Assembly (NCBI GenBank): GCA_020073345.1
Contig: JAIQFI010000006.1
Location: 1 to 64,000, forward strand
From: Terriglobia bacterium
Lineage (GTDB): Bacteria; Acidobacteriota; Terriglobia; Bryobacterales; Bryobacteraceae
Direction of reading: 5' to 3'
DNA: 64,000 nucleotides
Shown: positions 13,024 through 26,509 of the stretch, piece by piece
Position numbering within the stretch: the stretch's first letter is position 1
Layout of the letters: each line of letters begins with the position of its first letter
Made by a program: the position numbers and the translations under genes
Notes under the pieces: generated by a model
Told to the model about the DNA's origin: nothing
The model's database searches: none
Seen by the model: the letters and a program-made list of their open reading frames with translations, nothing else

Positions 13024-13769
13024 AGCTTTACTACCGCGCGGAGATACGTGAGAATCGCGGCCAACTCCGCATCGCTATAGGCGCTGATCACGGAAGCGTG
13101 GCGCCAAGTGCTGCCGTCGCGGGTTTGAATGGACGCGGAGGCTTCGGTCCGTAGCACGGGCGGCGGCGTGGTGAGATCGTAGAAAATCACGGCGTTGGCC
13201 TTCTTACTAACCACGAGAGCGGGCATGGACTCCGCGCCCAGGGTGGCGGTGGAAACCTGCGGAGTCGCCAAAATCTTCAACGCCGCCACGTCGGCGGGAA
13301 CTTTCGCGATGGGCGTCGCGACGGGGATGCCAAGGCCTCCGATCTCATGGCACGTCGAGCAACGTCCGAAGCCGCGGACGGCGTCGGAGAACAGAGTTCG
13401 GCCGCGGGCAGCGTCGGCTGTGAGTTTAGCCGCGGCAGGGACGGGAGGCCCGCCACTACCTGCGATGGTCGGACTCGCGATGCCGTTGAGCGATGCCACG
13501 TAGGCCACAACTGCTGTCAGGTCAGCGCGAGAAAGCGTGGTCGCGAACGCCGGCATCGCGGTGCCGGGAATGCCGCGCGCGACGGTGCCGCCGATGAATT
13601 CTTGATCGAATCCACGCGCGGCCAGGCGGGGCGCGCCCCCGTTGGTCCCACGAGCTCCGTGGCAGTATCCGGTGGCGCAGGATTTGCTGAAGACGGCTTC
13701 GCCCTGCTTGCCTAGGTCCTGGGCGGGGGTAAGCGTGGTTATGGCGAGCAAAAGCAAAGCGTACTTCAT
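13020..13769 (-). CDS. Periplasmic dihaem cytochrome c
   Basis: 249 residues with signal peptide MKYALLLLAITTLTPAQ. The first haem region is SCATGYCHGARG, a CX4CH arrangement rather than the normal CXXCH, and has a downstream Met candidate (GTAMPAF). The second haem site is canonical (CSTCHEIGG, about residue 130). ATG 13769 overlaps the stop of the PQQ dehydrogenase (ATGA), so it is almost certainly co-translated with it and is the likely electron acceptor for PQQH2. The C-terminal 100 residues form a separate domain (SMPALVVSKKANAVIFYDLT...), probably a partner-binding module. Confidence 0.88.
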   Translation of the reverse strand: MKYALLLLAITTLTPAQDLGKQGEAVFSKSCATGYCHGARGTNGGAPRLAARGFDQEFIGGTVARGIPGTAMPAFATTLSRADLTAVVAYVASLNGIASPTIAGSGGPPVPAAAKLTADAARGRTLFSDAVRGFGRCSTCHEIGGLGIPVATPIAKVPADVAALKILATPQVSTATLGAESMPALVVSKKANAVIFYDLTTPPPVLRTEASASIQTRDGSTWRHASVISAYSDAELAAILTYLRAVVKL

Positions 13770-15457
13770 CGCGATCCCTCCGGCAAGGCGAATACGACCA
13801 AGGTGGACCCGGCGCGGAAGTTTTCTTCGGGGAACAATCCGACTGCCGCGCCGCCGACCAAGGACTGCTGAAATCCGGTGGTCACCGCGATGTATTGCCG
13901 GCCGTTGACCGAGTACGAAATCGACCCTCCGCGGTGCCCGGCGCCGGCCTGGAAGCTCCACAGCTTGTTTCCGGTCCGCGCATCCAGCGCGAAGAAGTTG
14001 CCCTCGGGATCGCCGGTGAATACCAGATCGCCGGCGGTGGCGAGCACAGACGAAAGCAGAACGAACTTGTAGGGCATGCTCCAGACACGTTTTCCGGTGA
14101 CGGGATCCCAGGCGTCCACATGACTGTAGGTGGTGCGGTTGGGCGGGAGCTTCATGGGGAAATCGCCATTCATGAAGAAGCGGCCCTCGGTGGGCTTGGT
14201 GTCGTTGGGCGTGATGTCGGTACAGATTTCGTTGGTGGGCGTGTAGAGGAATCCGGTACGCGGCGAGTAGGCCATGGAGTTCCAGCTCTTGGCGCCGGCC
14301 GCGCTGGGACAGAAGTTTTTCGTCTTGCCCATCTCGGGCTCGTTGCGTCCGACCAGCTTGCCGTCCTCGGTGACGCCGGAGATCCAGTTGGAAAGCTCGG
14401 GCACGTTGAACGAGCTGAGAAATTCTCCGGTGACGCGGTCGAACACGAAGGTCAGGCCGCTCTTGTTCATGTGCACCAGCAGCTTGCGCATCTGGCCGCG
14501 GGACCCATTACCAACGACGCGATCCATCAGGAGAACTTCATAGGAAGAATCGAAATCCCACACGTCGTCGGGGACTTCCTGGAAATACCAGCGCAGTTTG
14601 CCGGTGTCGGCATCGAGCGCGACCATGCTCGCCGTGTAAAGGTTCACATCCTTGGACTTACTGGTGCCTGCGGCGACGCGATCGGCATCGTAGAAATCGG
14701 CCGCGGCGTTGCCGGTACCCCAGTAGATCAGGTTGAGGTCGGGATCGAAGGAGCCGGTGAGCCAGGGGGCTCCACCGCCGAAACGCCAGCTGTCGCCTTT
14801 CCAAGTTTCATTGCCTTTCTCGCCGGGACCGGGTACGACGTACCAGCGCCAGGCGGCGCGTCCCGTTTTCGTATAGAACGCGGTGAGATAACCGCGATGG
14901 GCCTGATCGCCGCCGTTGCCGCCGACGATCACCTTGTCCTTGACGATGAGCGGCGCTCCGGTAATGTTGCATCCGCACTGCTTGGGATCGTCGACGCTGA
15001 CTTTCCAGACTTCGTGGCCGGTTTTCTGATCGAGCGCGACGACGAAATTGTCTTTGGTGCCGAAGATGACTTTGCCGTCGCCGACGGCGACTCCGCGATT
15101 CTGGATGAAATCGGAATGGCTGCCGGCGATGCCGGGGCGAGGCGTGGGATAGCGGTACTGCCAGATCACGGTCCCTTTGGCCGCGTCGAGCGCGAAGACA
15201 CGCGCGCCGGCGGAGATCAGGTACATGACGCCATCGACAACGATGGGCGTCGAGCCGAGATTCTCGGTGTAGTCGCCGGTCTGGAAAATCCAGGCGGGGA
15301 GGAGATTTTTGACGTTCGACGTGTTGACCTGGTCGAGCGCGCTGTAGCGCCAGGAGAACTGGGTGCCACCGTAGTGGGGCCAGTCGGCACGGGTGACGGC
15401 GGCGTCCTGAGCGGAGAGGGGCAGCAGGACCAAGGGGAGGAAGGCTAGAGTTCGCAT
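13766..15457 (-). CDS. PQQ-dependent alcohol dehydrogenase-like quinoprotein
   Basis: Periplasmic quinoprotein oxidising an alcohol or similar substrate and passing electrons to the following cytochrome. 563 residues, signal peptide MRTLAFLPLVLLPLSA, then eight beta-propeller blades with repeated W-motifs (for example ALDAAKGTVIWQYRY, ALDQKTGHEVWK, ALDARTGNKLWSFQ). The catalytic-site motif is VWDFDSSYE: the Asp two positions after the catalytic Asp is the residue that marks lanthanide-using XoxF-type enzymes, whereas calcium MxaF enzymes have Ala. The vicinal Cys-Cys before NRG in classic enzymes is missing (SHSDFIQNRG). The metal-ligand Glu position appears as Asp (GNGGDQAHRG). Substrate unassigned. 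Confidence 0.88.
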   Translation of the reverse strand: MRTLAFLPLVLLPLSAQDAAVTRADWPHYGGTQFSWRYSALDQVNTSNVKNLLPAWIFQTGDYTENLGSTPIVVDGVMYLISAGARVFALDAAKGTVIWQYRYPTPRPGIAGSHSDFIQNRGVAVGDGKVIFGTKDNFVVALDQKTGHEVWKVSVDDPKQCGCNITGAPLIVKDKVIVGGNGGDQAHRGYLTAFYTKTGRAAWRWYVVPGPGEKGNETWKGDSWRFGGGAPWLTGSFDPDLNLIYWGTGNAAADFYDADRVAAGTSKSKDVNLYTASMVALDADTGKLRWYFQEVPDDVWDFDSSYEVLLMDRVVGNGSRGQMRKLLVHMNKSGLTFVFDRVTGEFLSSFNVPELSNWISGVTEDGKLVGRNEPEMGKTKNFCPSAAGAKSWNSMAYSPRTGFLYTPTNEICTDITPNDTKPTEGRFFMNGDFPMKLPPNRTTYSHVDAWDPVTGKRVWSMPYKFVLLSSVLATAGDLVFTGDPEGNFFALDARTGNKLWSFQAGAGHRGGSISYSVNGRQYIAVTTGFQQSLVGGAAVGLFPEENFRAGSTLVVFALPEGSR

Positions 15458-21479: not shown

Positions 21480-21851
21480 TTACTTGCCGGCTTCCGCCTT
21501 GAGCTGTTGGACCAGCGGGATATCCTTGGCTTCCGGTGAATCCGGAAGCGTCTTGATGTACGCCCAGATGTCGGCCAGCTGCGCATCCGAAAGTACCTTG
21601 GCGGAGTAAGACGGCATCTGGTTAGTGCCGGGGCTGCGGACGTAGGCCGTGAAGACGACCGTCGCCATCTTCATCGGAACCAGCCGCTTTCCAGGGCCGT
21701 TCTGACCCGAGAAGCCGTGGCATGCGTAGCAACTGTAGTCGACGAACATCTTCTTCCCACGAGTGGCATCGCCCTGCTGGGCAACCGCAGAGACGACCAG
21801 CAGGCTCGTAGCCGCCACGGGTGCGAGGAATCCGAAAATTAGCTTCTTCAT
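21480..21851 (-). CDS. Small periplasmic monohaem cytochrome c
   Basis: 123 residues, signal peptide MKKLIFGFLAPVAATSLLVVSAVA. One class I haem site, YSCYACHGFSGQNG (CXXCH, about residue 42), and a distal Met ligand in QMPSYSAKVL. It starts 11 bp after the stop of the upstream ThDP enzyme, with GGAGATACGAAT as ribosome site overlapping that stop, so it is the third gene of a ThDP-enzyme operon. It probably accepts electrons from, or carries electrons for, those exported enzymes; this is inference from context. Confidence 0.9.
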   Translation of the reverse strand: MKKLIFGFLAPVAATSLLVVSAVAQQGDATRGKKMFVDYSCYACHGFSGQNGPGKRLVPMKMATVVFTAYVRSPGTNQMPSYSAKVLSDAQLADIWAYIKTLPDSPEAKDIPLVQQLKAEAGK

Positions 21852-21862
21852 ATTCGTATCTC

Positions 21863-23749
21863 CTACCCGCGCGGCTGAGTTACAACATCGATCATCACGG
21901 GCTCGCCTTTCTTGACACGTTCGACGCCGCGCTTCAGAGCGGGCGCGAGATCCTTGGGATCGGTGATGGGACCTTCGCTGTACATGCCGTAGGCTTTGGC
22001 CATCATGGCGTAGTCGATGTTGGGATCGATCAGCCGCGTACCGATGTGCGAATTTTCCTGGCCGCGGTTGCGGATGCTGGCGGCGCGCGCGATGAACATC
22101 ACTTCCTGGTGATACCCACGGTTGTTGTGCATGATGCTCAGCAGCGGGATGCGGTGATGCGCGGCGGTCCACAGAATGCCGGGCGAATAATTCATGTCTC
22201 CGTCGGTCTGGATGTTGACGGAGAGGCGTCCGTGCTTCTTGTTGGCGAGGGCGGCGCCCACCGACGCCGGTGCGCCGTATCCCATGCCGCCGGCTCCCTG
22301 CCCGCCCAGGTAGTGGTAGGTCTTCTTCATGTCCCACATGCGGCTGGGCCAGCCTCCCACGAAGCCTTGCGGGGAAACATACGACCAATCCTCGTTCTTG
22401 ATCAGAGGCCACAATTCGCCGGCGATGCGAGCCAGACTGACAGGGCTCGCATTCCAGCCGACGGAAGCCGCTTCCACGGCTGCGGCACGCGCGGCGTGGT
22501 TGGCCTCGGCGTGTTTCTTCCCACGATCCTCGAACAATCGTTTCTTGTCGGGGGTCAGGAGCTTCTGCACTTCCTCGATCAGCGCCGGGAGAGTCGCCTC
22601 CGGATCGGCCGCGATGTAGACATCGCCATTCATGCCGTTCCCGTTGATGTTGAAGTTGGACGTGGCGAGCAATTCAGCCGTGCTGATGACGATGGTCTTC
22701 CCGCCGCCGCCGGGGCCGCCTCGCCCGCCTCCTCCGCCCCCGCCCGCTTCAAGACTCAGCGTGACATCCGCGGCTCCACCCACGCCGTTACCGGCCATAG
22801 GATGACGATTTGGGAAGGTCATCCGGTCGCCACCGCCGCCGACCGGGCATTGCAGCAGATCAGCGAGCCGCACCAGCAGGTCCATACCTTCCTGAGTACG
22901 TACGCGGCCCGCCGCGATGCGCGGATTGTTGGCGTTCACCATGTCCTTGGCGATCTGCCGCACCGACGCCAGATCGGCGCTGGGCATCGACGGCATGGTG
23001 AACTTGGGAACCTGCGGCCGGTTGGCCGGCATCGCGCCCATCTGCAGCTCGGCTTGCACGGTGATCAGTACGGGCGCCATGGGAGGCGTCATCGCCAGCT
23101 TATATGCACGAATCAAGGCTTGGCCAACGCCGGCAAGCGTATCCGGCTGGTGATCCCATTTCACGAAATCGCGCACCATGGCTCCGAGGTCAACGGCAGT
23201 GTGGGCGGGAACGGCAGTATCGCCGGTACCCGCGATCATAATGATCGGCACGCGGTCGCCGTACGCGTTGTAAATCGCCATGGCCGCATGCTGTACGCCG
23301 ATTGTGCCGTGCAACAGGGCCAGCATCGGCTTGCCGTCGGCCTTGGCGTAGCCGTGCGCCATCGCGACGGCGTTCTCCTCGTGGGTGCAGGTGACAATCT
23401 CGGGATTGTTCCTGGTGTAGTTGATGAGAGATTCGTGGAGTCCTTCGAAACTCGACCCGGGATTGAAAGAGACGTACTCAATGCCGAGCGCCTTGATGAC
23501 GTCGCACATGTAATCGGAACCGGGGTTCTCGACGATGCGCGAAACTGGCGCAGGCCGGGCCGTTCCATCTTCGCGAGCGATCACGGCGCCTTCAGGCTGG
23601 GCTGCACCGCCGCGTCCGCCGCGGCCTCCGCCCTGCTGAGCTTCGGTGAGCTGAGGGGTCACCAGCGTTGCAGCGCTGACGGCAGCTCCGGCGGCTGCTC
23701 CTTTTAGAAATCCGCGACGGCCGACGGAAGTGTGCTTGGGTTTCGACAT
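21863..23749 (-). CDS. Tat-exported thiamine-diphosphate enzyme (acetolactate synthase/pyruvate oxidase-like), paralogue 1
   Basis: 628 residues from ATG 23749, preceded by GGAGATATTCACC. N-terminal twin-arginine signal GRRGFLKGAAAG. The ThDP fold is complete: N-terminal Pyr domain with catalytic Glu in CTHEENAVAMAHGYAK (about residue 125), and C-terminal PP domain with the diphosphate/Mg motif TDGDMNYSPG...HNN (about residue 540). Relatives are acetolactate synthase, pyruvate oxidase and benzoylformate decarboxylase; the substrate is probably a 2-oxo acid. The middle domain carries a poly-Gly insertion encoded at about 22705-22747 that the paralogue lacks. Export of a ThDP enzyme is unusual. 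Located between its paralogue and a cytochrome c. Confidence 0.88.
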   Translation of the reverse strand: MSKPKHTSVGRRGFLKGAAAGAAVSAATLVTPQLTEAQQGGGRGGRGGAAQPEGAVIAREDGTARPAPVSRIVENPGSDYMCDVIKALGIEYVSFNPGSSFEGLHESLINYTRNNPEIVTCTHEENAVAMAHGYAKADGKPMLALLHGTIGVQHAAMAIYNAYGDRVPIIMIAGTGDTAVPAHTAVDLGAMVRDFVKWDHQPDTLAGVGQALIRAYKLAMTPPMAPVLITVQAELQMGAMPANRPQVPKFTMPSMPSADLASVRQIAKDMVNANNPRIAAGRVRTQEGMDLLVRLADLLQCPVGGGGDRMTFPNRHPMAGNGVGGAADVTLSLEAGGGGGGGRGGPGGGGKTIVISTAELLATSNFNINGNGMNGDVYIAADPEATLPALIEEVQKLLTPDKKRLFEDRGKKHAEANHAARAAAVEAASVGWNASPVSLARIAGELWPLIKNEDWSYVSPQGFVGGWPSRMWDMKKTYHYLGGQGAGGMGYGAPASVGAALANKKHGRLSVNIQTDGDMNYSPGILWTAAHHRIPLLSIMHNNRGYHQEVMFIARAASIRNRGQENSHIGTRLIDPNIDYAMMAKAYGMYSEGPITDPKDLAPALKRGVERVKKGEPVMIDVVTQPRG

Positions 23750-23820
23750 GGTGAATATCTCCGTGGATCGGTTTAGATCACAAACAGGCCGGTATCGATT
23801 GTACACCCGGCAGCGCTCGA

Positions 23821-23866
23821 TTTGACGGGTTTGCAAACCCGTCGCAGGTCTGGAGACCTGCCCTAC
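23821..23866. repeat. Double palindromic element between the two ThDP-enzyme genes
   Basis: A perfect 20-bp palindrome, GACGGGTTTG and its complement (23824-23843), is followed by CAGGTCTGGAGACCTG (23845-23860, 7-bp arms) and GCCCTAC. It abuts the stop codon of the upstream ThDP gene. It may protect or attenuate the operon transcript, or be a mobile REP-like element. Confidence 0.6.
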
Positions 23867-25770
23867 TAGCCGCGGGGCTGAGTCACGACGTCGATCAGTA
23901 CAGGCTCGCCCTTCTTAACCCGCTCGACGCCCCGTTTGAGCGCTGGCGCGAGGTCCTTCGGATCGGTGATCGGACCTTCGGCATAGAGTCCATAGCCTTT
24001 AGCGATGGACGCGTAGTTGATATCCGGATCCCACAGCTTGGTGCCGATACCGGCCCGCTCCGCGCCGCGATTGTGCGCGCTGGCCATCTGTTCGACGAAC
24101 ATCACTTCCTGGTGATACCCGCGGTTGTTGTGCATGATGCTCAGCAGCGGGATGCGATGATGGGCCGCGGTCCAGAAGACGCCGGGGGAATAATTGAAAT
24201 CGCCGTCGGTCTGAATGTTGATGGAGAGGCGCCCGTACTTGCGATTGGCGAGCGCCGCGCCCACCGACGCAGGCGCGCCGTAGCCCATGCCGCCGGCTCC
24301 CTGGCCGCCGATGTAGTGATAATGCTTCTCCATGTTCCAGATGCGATTGGGCCAGTTGCCGACGAAACCCTGCGGCGAGACGAACGACCAGTCTTCGTTC
24401 TTGAGCAGCGGCCAAAGCTCGGCGGCGATGCGGCCGACGCTGACGGGGCTCGCATTCCAGCCCCAGGAGAGCGCTTCCACATCGGCTTCGCGATTCTTGC
24501 GATGCGCCTCGGCGAGCTTCGCGCCACGATCCTTGAGGGCGCGCTGGCGATCGGCCGTGATCAGCTTCTTACAGGCTTCAATCAGATACGGCAGCGTGGC
24601 TTCCGCGTCCGCGCCGATGTCGAGATCGATGTCGGCATAGTGGCCGAAATCCTGGATGTTGCTCTTGTGAGAGAGAGAAACCGAAGAAATTTGAATGACC
24701 TTGGCGTTGCGAGGCCGCGCCGCGCGGGCTTCCGTCAGGATGTCCTGCACTTCGAGAGCCAGAGTGACATCGGGCTGGTATCCTGCGCCGCCATTGCCCG
24801 CCAGCGGATGGCGGTTGGGGAAGTTCATGCGCTCGCGATTGTTGACGGGCGATTGCAGCGTTTCCGCCAGTTCAATCAAGAGTTTGATGCCCTCGGGAGT
24901 ACGGGCGTAGCGTTCGGGGATGATCATGGGGCGCTCGGCCGCCACCAGCATGCGCGCGGCCTCGGCCACAGCGCCCATATCGCCGGCGGGCGGCGTGGTC
25001 ATCACCAGCTTGGGAATGCGCGGGCGCTGCCCTTCCATGGCGTGCGACTGAATCTCGGCGCCCGCCACGATCAGGACCGGCCCCATGGGCGGGGTCATGG
25101 CGATCTTGTAGGCGCGCACAGCGGATTCGGCGAACGCGCCGAGCGAATACGGTTGGTCGTCCCACTTGGTGTAATCGCGAACCAGCGCGCCCAGGTCCTG
25201 GGCACTGTGATAACTCTGGACGCCGGGATTGCGCTCGGCGCCATCGGAGTGATTGCCGACCACGATGTAGATCGGCACGCGGTCGCAATAGGCGTTGTAA
25301 ATCGCCATACCGGCGTGCTGCAGGCCGATATCGCCGTGGATCAGCGCCATCATGGGCTTGCCTTCGATCTTGGCGTAGCCGTGCGCCATGGCGACCGCGT
25401 TCTCCTCGTGCGTGCAGGTGAGGAACTCCGGCATCTTGTTATCGCCGTAGTTGATCAGCGATTCGTGCAGCGATTCGAAGGTGGATCCAGGATTGGCGCT
25501 GAGGTATTCGAGGTTGAGCGTTTTAAAGACGTCGACCATGAAGTCGGAGCCGGGGTTCTCGATGACTCGCGCATTGGCCGCGGGACGTGCCGCGCCGGTT
25601 TCTCGGGCGACGGCGGCTCCGCTGGGAGCCTGGGCTCCGCGTCCAGCGGGTTGCTGCGACGATTGCTGCGCGGGCGCCAGTTGCGGTTTGGCGGCCAAGG
25701 CAGCCGCGCCTACGGCAGCACCCTTCAGGAAGCCGCGTCGACCGACGGAACGCTTTGTGGACTTAGCCAT
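23866..25770 (-). CDS. Tat-exported thiamine-diphosphate enzyme, paralogue 2
   Basis: 634 residues from ATG 25770 with a strong ribosome site (GGAGGGAGATTCAAT). Twin-arginine signal GRRGFLKGAAVG followed by a hydrophobic stretch and an AQQ cleavage region. Catalytic Glu in CTHEENAVAMAHGYAK and the ThDP/Mg motif TDGDFNYSPG with downstream HNN match the neighbouring paralogue, as does the C-terminus (KKGEPVLIDVVTQPRG); the pair clearly arose by tandem duplication. The middle domain differs and has no poly-Gly insert. First gene of the ThDP-ThDP-cytochrome c operon. Likely 2-oxo-acid decarboxylase or oxidase acting in the periplasm; substrate unknown. Confidence 0.88.
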   Translation of the reverse strand: MAKSTKRSVGRRGFLKGAAVGAAALAAKPQLAPAQQSSQQPAGRGAQAPSGAAVARETGAARPAANARVIENPGSDFMVDVFKTLNLEYLSANPGSTFESLHESLINYGDNKMPEFLTCTHEENAVAMAHGYAKIEGKPMMALIHGDIGLQHAGMAIYNAYCDRVPIYIVVGNHSDGAERNPGVQSYHSAQDLGALVRDYTKWDDQPYSLGAFAESAVRAYKIAMTPPMGPVLIVAGAEIQSHAMEGQRPRIPKLVMTTPPAGDMGAVAEAARMLVAAERPMIIPERYARTPEGIKLLIELAETLQSPVNNRERMNFPNRHPLAGNGGAGYQPDVTLALEVQDILTEARAARPRNAKVIQISSVSLSHKSNIQDFGHYADIDLDIGADAEATLPYLIEACKKLITADRQRALKDRGAKLAEAHRKNREADVEALSWGWNASPVSVGRIAAELWPLLKNEDWSFVSPQGFVGNWPNRIWNMEKHYHYIGGQGAGGMGYGAPASVGAALANRKYGRLSINIQTDGDFNYSPGVFWTAAHHRIPLLSIMHNNRGYHQEVMFVEQMASAHNRGAERAGIGTKLWDPDINYASIAKGYGLYAEGPITDPKDLAPALKRGVERVKKGEPVLIDVVTQPRG

Positions 25771-25852: not shown

Positions 25853-26176
25853 GTGGCAGAGCGCATTACCAAAGTTCCGGACGTTTGCGGAGGCCGTGCC
25901 TCGATCGCTGGTCACCGAGTGCGGGTGCTCGATGTCGTGATCTGGCACGAGCAACACGGGTTATCCCCGGACGAGATTGTCTCTCAGGTTCCGTCGATTA
26001 CGCTGGCCGACGTCCACGCCGCGTTGGCGTACTACTACGACCATCGCGAGGAAATCCAGGAGGAAATCCGAGCCGAGCGGGAGCAGGCTGAGGAATTTCA
26101 CCGCAGCAACCCATCCGCGCTGTCGGAGAGGCTGACGGAGAGAACGTCCCGCAGCCGGCTGGACGAAGCCTCCTGA
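25853..26176 (+). CDS. DUF433 antitoxin
   Basis: 107 residues from GTG 25853. Core DUF433 pattern: VCGGRASIAGHRVRVLDVV, then LSPDEIVSQVPSITLADVHAALAYYYDH. Members are winged-helix DNA-binding antitoxins of the VapB45 type that neutralise and autoregulate with a PIN-like toxin. The C-terminal charged tail (EEIRAEREQAEEFHRS) probably binds the toxin. The toxin gene starts 3 bp after its stop. Confidence 0.85.
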   Translation: MAERITKVPDVCGGRASIAGHRVRVLDVVIWHEQHGLSPDEIVSQVPSITLADVHAALAYYYDHREEIQEEIRAEREQAEEFHRSNPSALSERLTERTSRSRLDEAS

Positions 26177-26179
26177 CAA

Positions 26180-26509
26180 GTGCGTGTCCGTTTTCATCTG
26201 GACGAGCACATCCCGATGAGCGTTGCCGCCGGTCTGCGGCGGCGGGGCATTGACGTCACTACCGCGGCTGCAGAGGAATTGACTGGAGCTTCGGACACGG
26301 ACCAGTTGTCCTTCGCAACTCAGTCTGGGCGCGTGCTGGTGACCCAGGACGCGGACTTCCTACGTTTGCATCAAGCAGGCGTAGTGCACGCGGGCATCGC
26401 CTACTGCCGCCAAGGTTCGATCTCCATCGGCGAAATGCTCCGCCGACTCGTCCCGGTACATAACCTCATGACGGCGGAGGAGATGCAAACTCGCGTGGAG
26501 TATCTCTGA
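26180..26509 (+). CDS. DUF5615 PIN-like toxin
   Basis: 109 residues from GTG 26180. Acidic PIN-like residues: FHLDEHIP at the N-terminus, GASDTDQLSFA and VLVTQDADFLRL, the usual layout of DUF5615 (Mut7-C-like) putative ribonucleases. Partner of the upstream DUF433 antitoxin; both have GTG starts and are tightly packed. Predicted to cleave RNA when free, stabilising the locus or acting in stress/phage response; target unknown. Confidence 0.85.
   Translation: MRVRFHLDEHIPMSVAAGLRRRGIDVTTAAAEELTGASDTDQLSFATQSGRVLVTQDADFLRLHQAGVVHAGIAYCRQGSISIGEMLRRLVPVHNLMTAEEMQTRVEYL

Follow-up and report, generated by a model that had tools for sequence, protein, structure and literature searches.

A branch of thiamine-diphosphate enzymes with twin-arginine-type signals and a linked cytochrome c in at least two bacterial phyla

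Results

The window analysed here (the whole stretch of 64,000 nucleotides from a soil bacterium) carries on its minus strand three consecutive genes in the ORF listing, namely those for two thiamine-diphosphate (ThDP) enzymes, A and B, that are 61% identical to each other, and for a cytochrome c. An earlier note on this DNA had described two such genes followed by that of a cytochrome, and the coordinates agree, including the 11 bp (21862-21852) from the stop of B to the cytochrome ATG. For B, the ATG at 23749 is preferred as the start; a longer listed ORF opens at a TTG at 23836. The features are the following:

25770-23866, minus strand: gene A, Tat-type ThDP enzyme, ATG start, 634 aa, benzoylformate-decarboxylase-like fold
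25669-25770, minus strand: twin-arginine signal of A, MAKSTKRSVGRRGFLKGAA...LAPA/QQ, cleavage site by eye
25405-25407, minus strand: codon of the ThDP-activating Glu122 of A (HEENA), which aligns with benzoylformate decarboxylase Glu47
24124-24207, minus strand: ThDP/Mg motif of A, D522-G523-D ... N548-N549
23750-23865, minus strand: A-B spacer, 116 bp, with palindromes at 23844-23862 and 23824-23843
23749-21863, minus strand: gene B, second Tat-type ThDP enzyme, 628 aa, with a central Gly-rich run
23639-23749, minus strand: twin-arginine signal of B, MSKPKHTSVGRRGFLKGAA...LTEA/QQ, cleavage site by eye
22121-22204, minus strand: ThDP/Mg motif of B, DGD ... NN
21851-21480, minus strand: cytochrome c gene, ATG start, 123 aa, monohaem, secreted
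21780-21851, minus strand: Sec-type signal of the cytochrome, ending SAVA/QQ, by eye
21717-21731, minus strand: haem-binding motif CYACH
21615-21617, minus strand: Met of the NQMP motif, invariant and presumably the sixth haem ligand

That A and B are transcribed together is less sure than the shared operon of the earlier note implies, given a spacer of this length with two palindromes. The palindrome sequence GGCAGGTCTNCAGACCTGC has nine perfect copies in the genome and two more with one mismatch, against one match per strand, at up to two mismatches, for the reversed pattern used as a control; one of the two adjacent palindromes at 23824-23862 is thus a dispersed short repeat, possibly REP-like. 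The region immediately upstream of A holds a divergently oriented gene pair on the plus strand (25853-26509), formed by a gene for a DUF433 protein (PF04255) and a second, short gene that is PIN-like by eye; this is perhaps a toxin-antitoxin pair. At 6 kb from the operon, 13766-15457 carries a gene of the PQQ-dependent alcohol dehydrogenase family (TIGR03075, over the cut-off) that also matches the acido-empty-quinoprotein model TIGR04528, under the cut-off.

The earlier note had also read the N-termini of the two enzymes as twin-arginine (Tat) signals. Both display SVGRRGFLKG, then an Ala-rich stretch and, by eye, a plausible cleavage site ahead of QQ, so that the marks of a Tat substrate (RRxFLK-type motif, hydrophobic stretch and Ala-x-Ala-type site) were found by motif rule and inspection. 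Signals of this type were present not only in A and B but throughout the branch described below (71/71), 70 by the motif rule and one by eye, the latter being L094 (Caballeronia), which failed the rule and was assigned by hand on the basis of its start, MTARRTFLKEAIAAGAS. Among the 70 that the rule identified, RRx was followed by F in 68 and then by L in 65, with Ala-x-Ala later in 62. The rule was also positive in 67 of 915 other proteins of the same loci, and RRx[FLIM] appeared in the 60 codons ahead of the domain in 4 of 87 sister sequences; we take the motif-based call of export as strong only because the pattern spans the whole branch. The genome of the window has two TatC matches, cytochrome-c assembly proteins and two haem-copper oxidase matches above the cut-off. 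It is known that the Tat system exports folded, cofactor-loaded proteins, and this would fit ThDP enzymes since ThDP is made in the cytoplasm.

Pfam TPP_enzyme_N and TPP_enzyme_C were over the cut-off in both A and B, and the central domain PF00205 was below it in A (27.3 vs 30.4) and without a reported match in B (in these searches the B sequence began at 23836 and that of the cytochrome at 21836, so that the latter lacked its first five residues). As had been proposed, the ThDP motifs are complete in both enzymes, and all 71 members of the exported branch, including A and B, have the activating Glu and the D-G-...-N-N motif. Since both keep these residues, there is no sign of a division into a catalytic and a regulatory subunit, and this assignment was rejected. 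H145 of A occupies the profile position of benzoylformate decarboxylase His70, and His is conserved there in 70 of the 71 sequences.

The nearest fold to the structure model of A (pLDDT 90) was that of benzoylformate decarboxylase, over its full length and with other ThDP enzymes within 2 Z units, and benzoylformate decarboxylases were the closest solved proteins by profile and by fold (Z). With the same model in Foldseek, glyoxylate carboligase was top by E-value and acetohydroxyacid synthase was also among the best; pyruvate oxidases were absent among the 50 structural matches listed, which is no proof of difference. Both enzymes fell short of the NCBIfam cut-offs for PRK07092, the benzoylformate decarboxylase equivalog (A 146.8, B 163.7 bits vs 493), and for the pyruvate oxidase/acetolactate synthase equivalogs PRK08611 (80.2 and 72.9 bits vs 742) and TIGR00118 (99.8 and 109.4 bits vs 538). 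The best-scoring NCBIfam model, PRK08327 (thiamine pyrophosphate-requiring protein), covered nearly the whole chain of both (A 249, B 195 bits vs a cut-off of 456), and its name gives no reaction. Profile cut-offs and closest fold rule out acetolactate synthase and pyruvate oxidase as names, and the earlier label of acetolactate-synthase/pyruvate-oxidase-like should be replaced by benzoylformate-decarboxylase-like.

The cytochrome passed PF13442 and PF00034 and has the features of class I cytochromes c, that is, CxxCH, a distal Met and a Pfam score over the cut-off. In an alignment of 14 such sequences, the haem Cys/Cys/His, Met-Pro and several further residues were invariant. By profile, cytochrome bc1 cytochrome domains were best, outscoring the cytochrome of p-cresol methylhydroxylase, which followed together with the cytochrome subunit of fructose dehydrogenase, among others. 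The structure model was moderate (pLDDT 78) and found no match at E 0.001 among the Foldseek targets.

Homologues of A were gathered from 79 loci in a collection of bacterial genomes, the window's own genome, plasmids, the genomes behind earlier loci and the window's family. Evenly drawn samples were added for three taxa: the window's phylum, the class to which a Caulobacter genome belongs, and the order that includes a genome titled Sterolibacterium. The 173 distinct sequences were reduced by removal of 11 cut or short ones to 162 homologues, plus 3 outgroups that stand outside the counts below, and, after losing L045 (Tat-type, stop-interrupted), L051, L062 and L161 to in-frame stops, to 158 including A and B. 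In the tree of these, one branch with an SH-like support of 97 parts 71 Tat-type sequences from 87 without a signal and, as only the catalytic part was used, the signal could not bias this result.

A small CxxCH ORF (60 to 320 aa, same strand, starting no more than 250 bp downstream) was present after 53 of the 71 Tat-type genes vs 0 of the 87 others, some of which have short downstream DNA (138 bp in L082, 218 bp in L155). The rough background in the same loci was 21/549 genes, genes being called by a crude rule and neighbour lengths being approximate. Since the search patterns were derived from the enzyme, the cytochrome was not selected for, and when only evenly drawn genomes minus the centre genomes were considered it was linked in 19/21. 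The earlier note had regarded failure of the Tat signal prediction and absence of the cytochrome beside homologues as telling against its reading, and had proposed to look for the linkage elsewhere; by motif rule and eye the signal is present in all 71, a secreted monohaem cytochrome c does recur beside homologues in other genomes, and the reading survives on both points. Enzyme and cytochrome distances in the 53 linked pairs were correlated (r = 0.72, vs values of up to 0.22 in 2000 permutations), partly because the genomes share descent.

The other 18 Tat-type genes had no adjacent cytochrome within 250 bp. Three are the first of a tandem with the cytochrome behind the second gene (window A, L021 and L017), in three a small CxxCH gene converges on that of the enzyme (L228, L041 and L043), the sequence of L015 stops 367 bp downstream, a dihaem gene lies upstream in L025, and the match in L032 is a ClpX zinc finger. 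For nine, with the single close A relatives L016, L018 and L020 among them, no cytochrome was found within 5 kb, as far as the contigs extend. The partner is therefore not obligate, or perhaps is encoded elsewhere. L040, L041, L043 and L056 come from metagenome assemblies titled Bordetella parapertussis, and these titles are probably wrong.

A third constant operon partner, which might reveal the substrate, was sought around the Tat-type genes and none was found: the neighbours are otherwise diverse, and a Pfam scan of 69 of the 93 listed same-strand neighbours disclosed no family in more than 4. Around the signal-less sister homologues (among L046-L093 and L115-L192), TctC-type uptake receptors are nearby in 19 of up to 92, counting within four genes and naming clusters by eye.

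Going by the locus titles, the Tat-type members belong to Acidobacteriota, Alphaproteobacteria and Betaproteobacteria. They were found in at least 12 of 297 genomes of the Acidobacteriota sample (the window's own included) and, with centre genomes included, in at least 2 of 289 of the alpha and at least 6 of 300 of the beta sample, all of these being lower bounds because scoring in the phylum, class and order samples was limited to four candidates from each genome; in the window's own family, 3 of 61 genomes had members. The genome of the window has four copies, which are A, B, one on contig C51 without an adjacent cytochrome and one on C2 with it. Members are also carried by two plasmid records, of Caballeronia and Novosphingobium. 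The Caballeronia plasmid locus, where the pair is annotated merely as "thiamine pyrophosphate-binding protein" and "c-type cytochrome", adjoins aromatic-degradation genes, which is too little for naming a substrate. The spread is patchy, with more than one copy in some genomes, and this patchiness suggests transfer between lineages.

The tandem of two enzymes emphasized in the earlier note is present here and is not the conserved unit, as same-strand tandems occur in four loci (the window, L021, L017 and L210). L021 has the three-gene order of the window with a longer A-B gap (A 94%, B 91% and cytochrome 89% identical), the order in L017 is cytochrome, A-like enzyme, second enzyme, cytochrome, and that in L210 is enzyme, cytochrome, enzyme, cytochrome. 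From these orders, the basic unit is one enzyme plus one cytochrome. The finding is thus larger than first described: Tat-type ThDP enzymes form a conserved branch, linked to a cytochrome c, that extends over at least two phyla.

Discussion

The gene layout, the signals, the catalytic residues and the conserved linkage can be read directly from the sequence, and we strongly infer that A and B are exported and bind ThDP and that haem is attached to the cytochrome. Enzyme and cytochrome are the sole constant pair, so that the simplest reading is that the cytochrome accepts the electrons of the enzyme, and the linkage together with the lack of any other constant partner points to such a flow. We believe it somewhat probable that the enzyme is a flavin-free oxidoreductase of the periplasm that depends on ThDP, and that the cytochrome c of the same locus is its own electron acceptor. 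A and B would fold in the cytoplasm, load ThDP and Mg2+ and leave folded via Tat, and the cytochrome would leave via Sec and acquire its haem outside. The enzyme would then attack its substrate, a 2-oxo acid or related carbonyl compound, with release of CO2, the ThDP enamine/carbanion would be oxidised by the small cytochrome c in two one-electron steps, the acyl-ThDP would be hydrolysed by water to a carboxylic acid, and the cytochrome would hand the electrons on to a terminal oxidase. The putative reaction is: 2-oxo acid + H2O + 2 ferricytochrome c -> carboxylic acid + CO2 + 2 ferrocytochrome c + 2 H+.

Against this reading stand the 18 of 71 Tat-type genes without an adjacent cytochrome and the closest fold, which is that of a non-redox decarboxylase. 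We are also aware of no ThDP enzyme working without flavin that has cytochrome c as its acceptor, and to our knowledge ThDP enzymes of this group act inside cells. In the literature, with subscription papers mostly outside the scope of the search, neither a Tat-exported ThDP enzyme nor a ThDP-cytochrome c module appeared among the matches listed, and the passages found in PMC10384211, PMC3305326 and PMC10080006 held nothing bearing on this question. The ThDP carbanion of DXP synthase is reported to give electrons to oxygen, redox dyes and an oxime (PMC11908136). With this as precedent, a flavin-free ThDP carbanion could in principle reduce a cytochrome.

A different reading is suggested by the closest fold and the aligned active-site His, which match a non-redox decarboxylase: A and B might be periplasmic and yet decarboxylate, cleave or ligate like benzoylformate decarboxylase or benzaldehyde lyase, the cytochrome serving a separate aldehyde-oxidising dehydrogenase. 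Candidates for the latter exist near the signal-less sisters (8 molybdenum-hydroxylase-like and 7 aldehyde-dehydrogenase-like genes for up to 92 sisters, by the same counting within four genes and naming by eye). However, no dehydrogenase is consistently linked to the Tat-type genes among the 69 neighbours scanned, and the cytochrome is (53/71), which makes this reading rather unlikely. It is also conceivable that A and B are periplasmic flavoenzymes resembling pyruvate oxidase that bind FAD in addition to ThDP and pass electrons from ThDP to FAD and then to cytochrome c. Tat export would suit a flavoprotein, and the best Foldseek matches include relatives that bind FAD, namely glyoxylate carboligase, which is first by E-value, and acetohydroxyacid synthase; benzoylformate decarboxylases are FAD-free. 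As the fold scores are close, the fold match is compatible with FAD too, but the benzoylformate decarboxylases are ahead by Z and by profile, and the weak PF00205 match in A and its absence from the reported matches of B, with its central Gly-rich run, make a flavoenzyme improbable.

The N-terminal motif could finally be something other than a working Tat signal, leaving the enzymes in the cytoplasm and the cytochrome as a chance neighbour. The signal was indeed judged by a rule that fires in other proteins of the loci (67/915), but the tightly kept residues after RRx, the clean split from the sister group and the distribution of the cytochrome (53/71 vs 0/87) render this very improbable.

Comparison with known systems helps to place the exported oxidoreductase and cytochrome that we favour. 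Benzoylformate decarboxylase of Pseudomonas putida (1bfd) is a cytoplasmic, non-redox decarboxylase, and the exported branch differs from it by the Tat-type signal, the linked cytochrome and the branch-specific H553, E555 and M557 after the ThDP motif. PoxB and the phosphate-dependent pyruvate oxidases likewise use ThDP to oxidise a 2-oxo acid without being part of the dehydrogenase complexes, but they contain FAD, lie in the cytoplasm or at the inner membrane face and use quinone or oxygen as acceptor. In the 2-oxoacid:ferredoxin oxidoreductases a metal centre also oxidises the ThDP intermediate by one-electron steps, although these enzymes have another subunit build, iron-sulphur clusters and CoA, and are cytoplasmic. 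A small dedicated monohaem cytochrome subunit is found as well in p-cresol methylhydroxylase (1dii, 1wve), whose cytochrome subunit scored 42 bits by profile and, with 0.73, had the top target TM-score of the 50 matches listed with the cytochrome model; its enzyme subunit is an FAD protein.

We put forward more tentatively, at somewhat less than an even chance, that the branch is a widespread, undescribed periplasmic class of respiratory 2-oxo acid:cytochrome c oxidoreductases, each with a dedicated cytochrome c that takes electrons directly from a flavin-free ThDP intermediate. This would give meaning to genes labelled only by cofactor or haem type, and the soluble systems of two proteins lend themselves to testing. 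It also raises the mechanistic question of whether a haem can oxidise a ThDP enamine without flavin or iron-sulphur. If true, thiamine catalysis would reach into the periplasm through this conserved, exported and cytochrome-linked branch, which would represent a new electron entry point into respiration that places vitamin B1 chemistry within a periplasmic electron-transfer chain.
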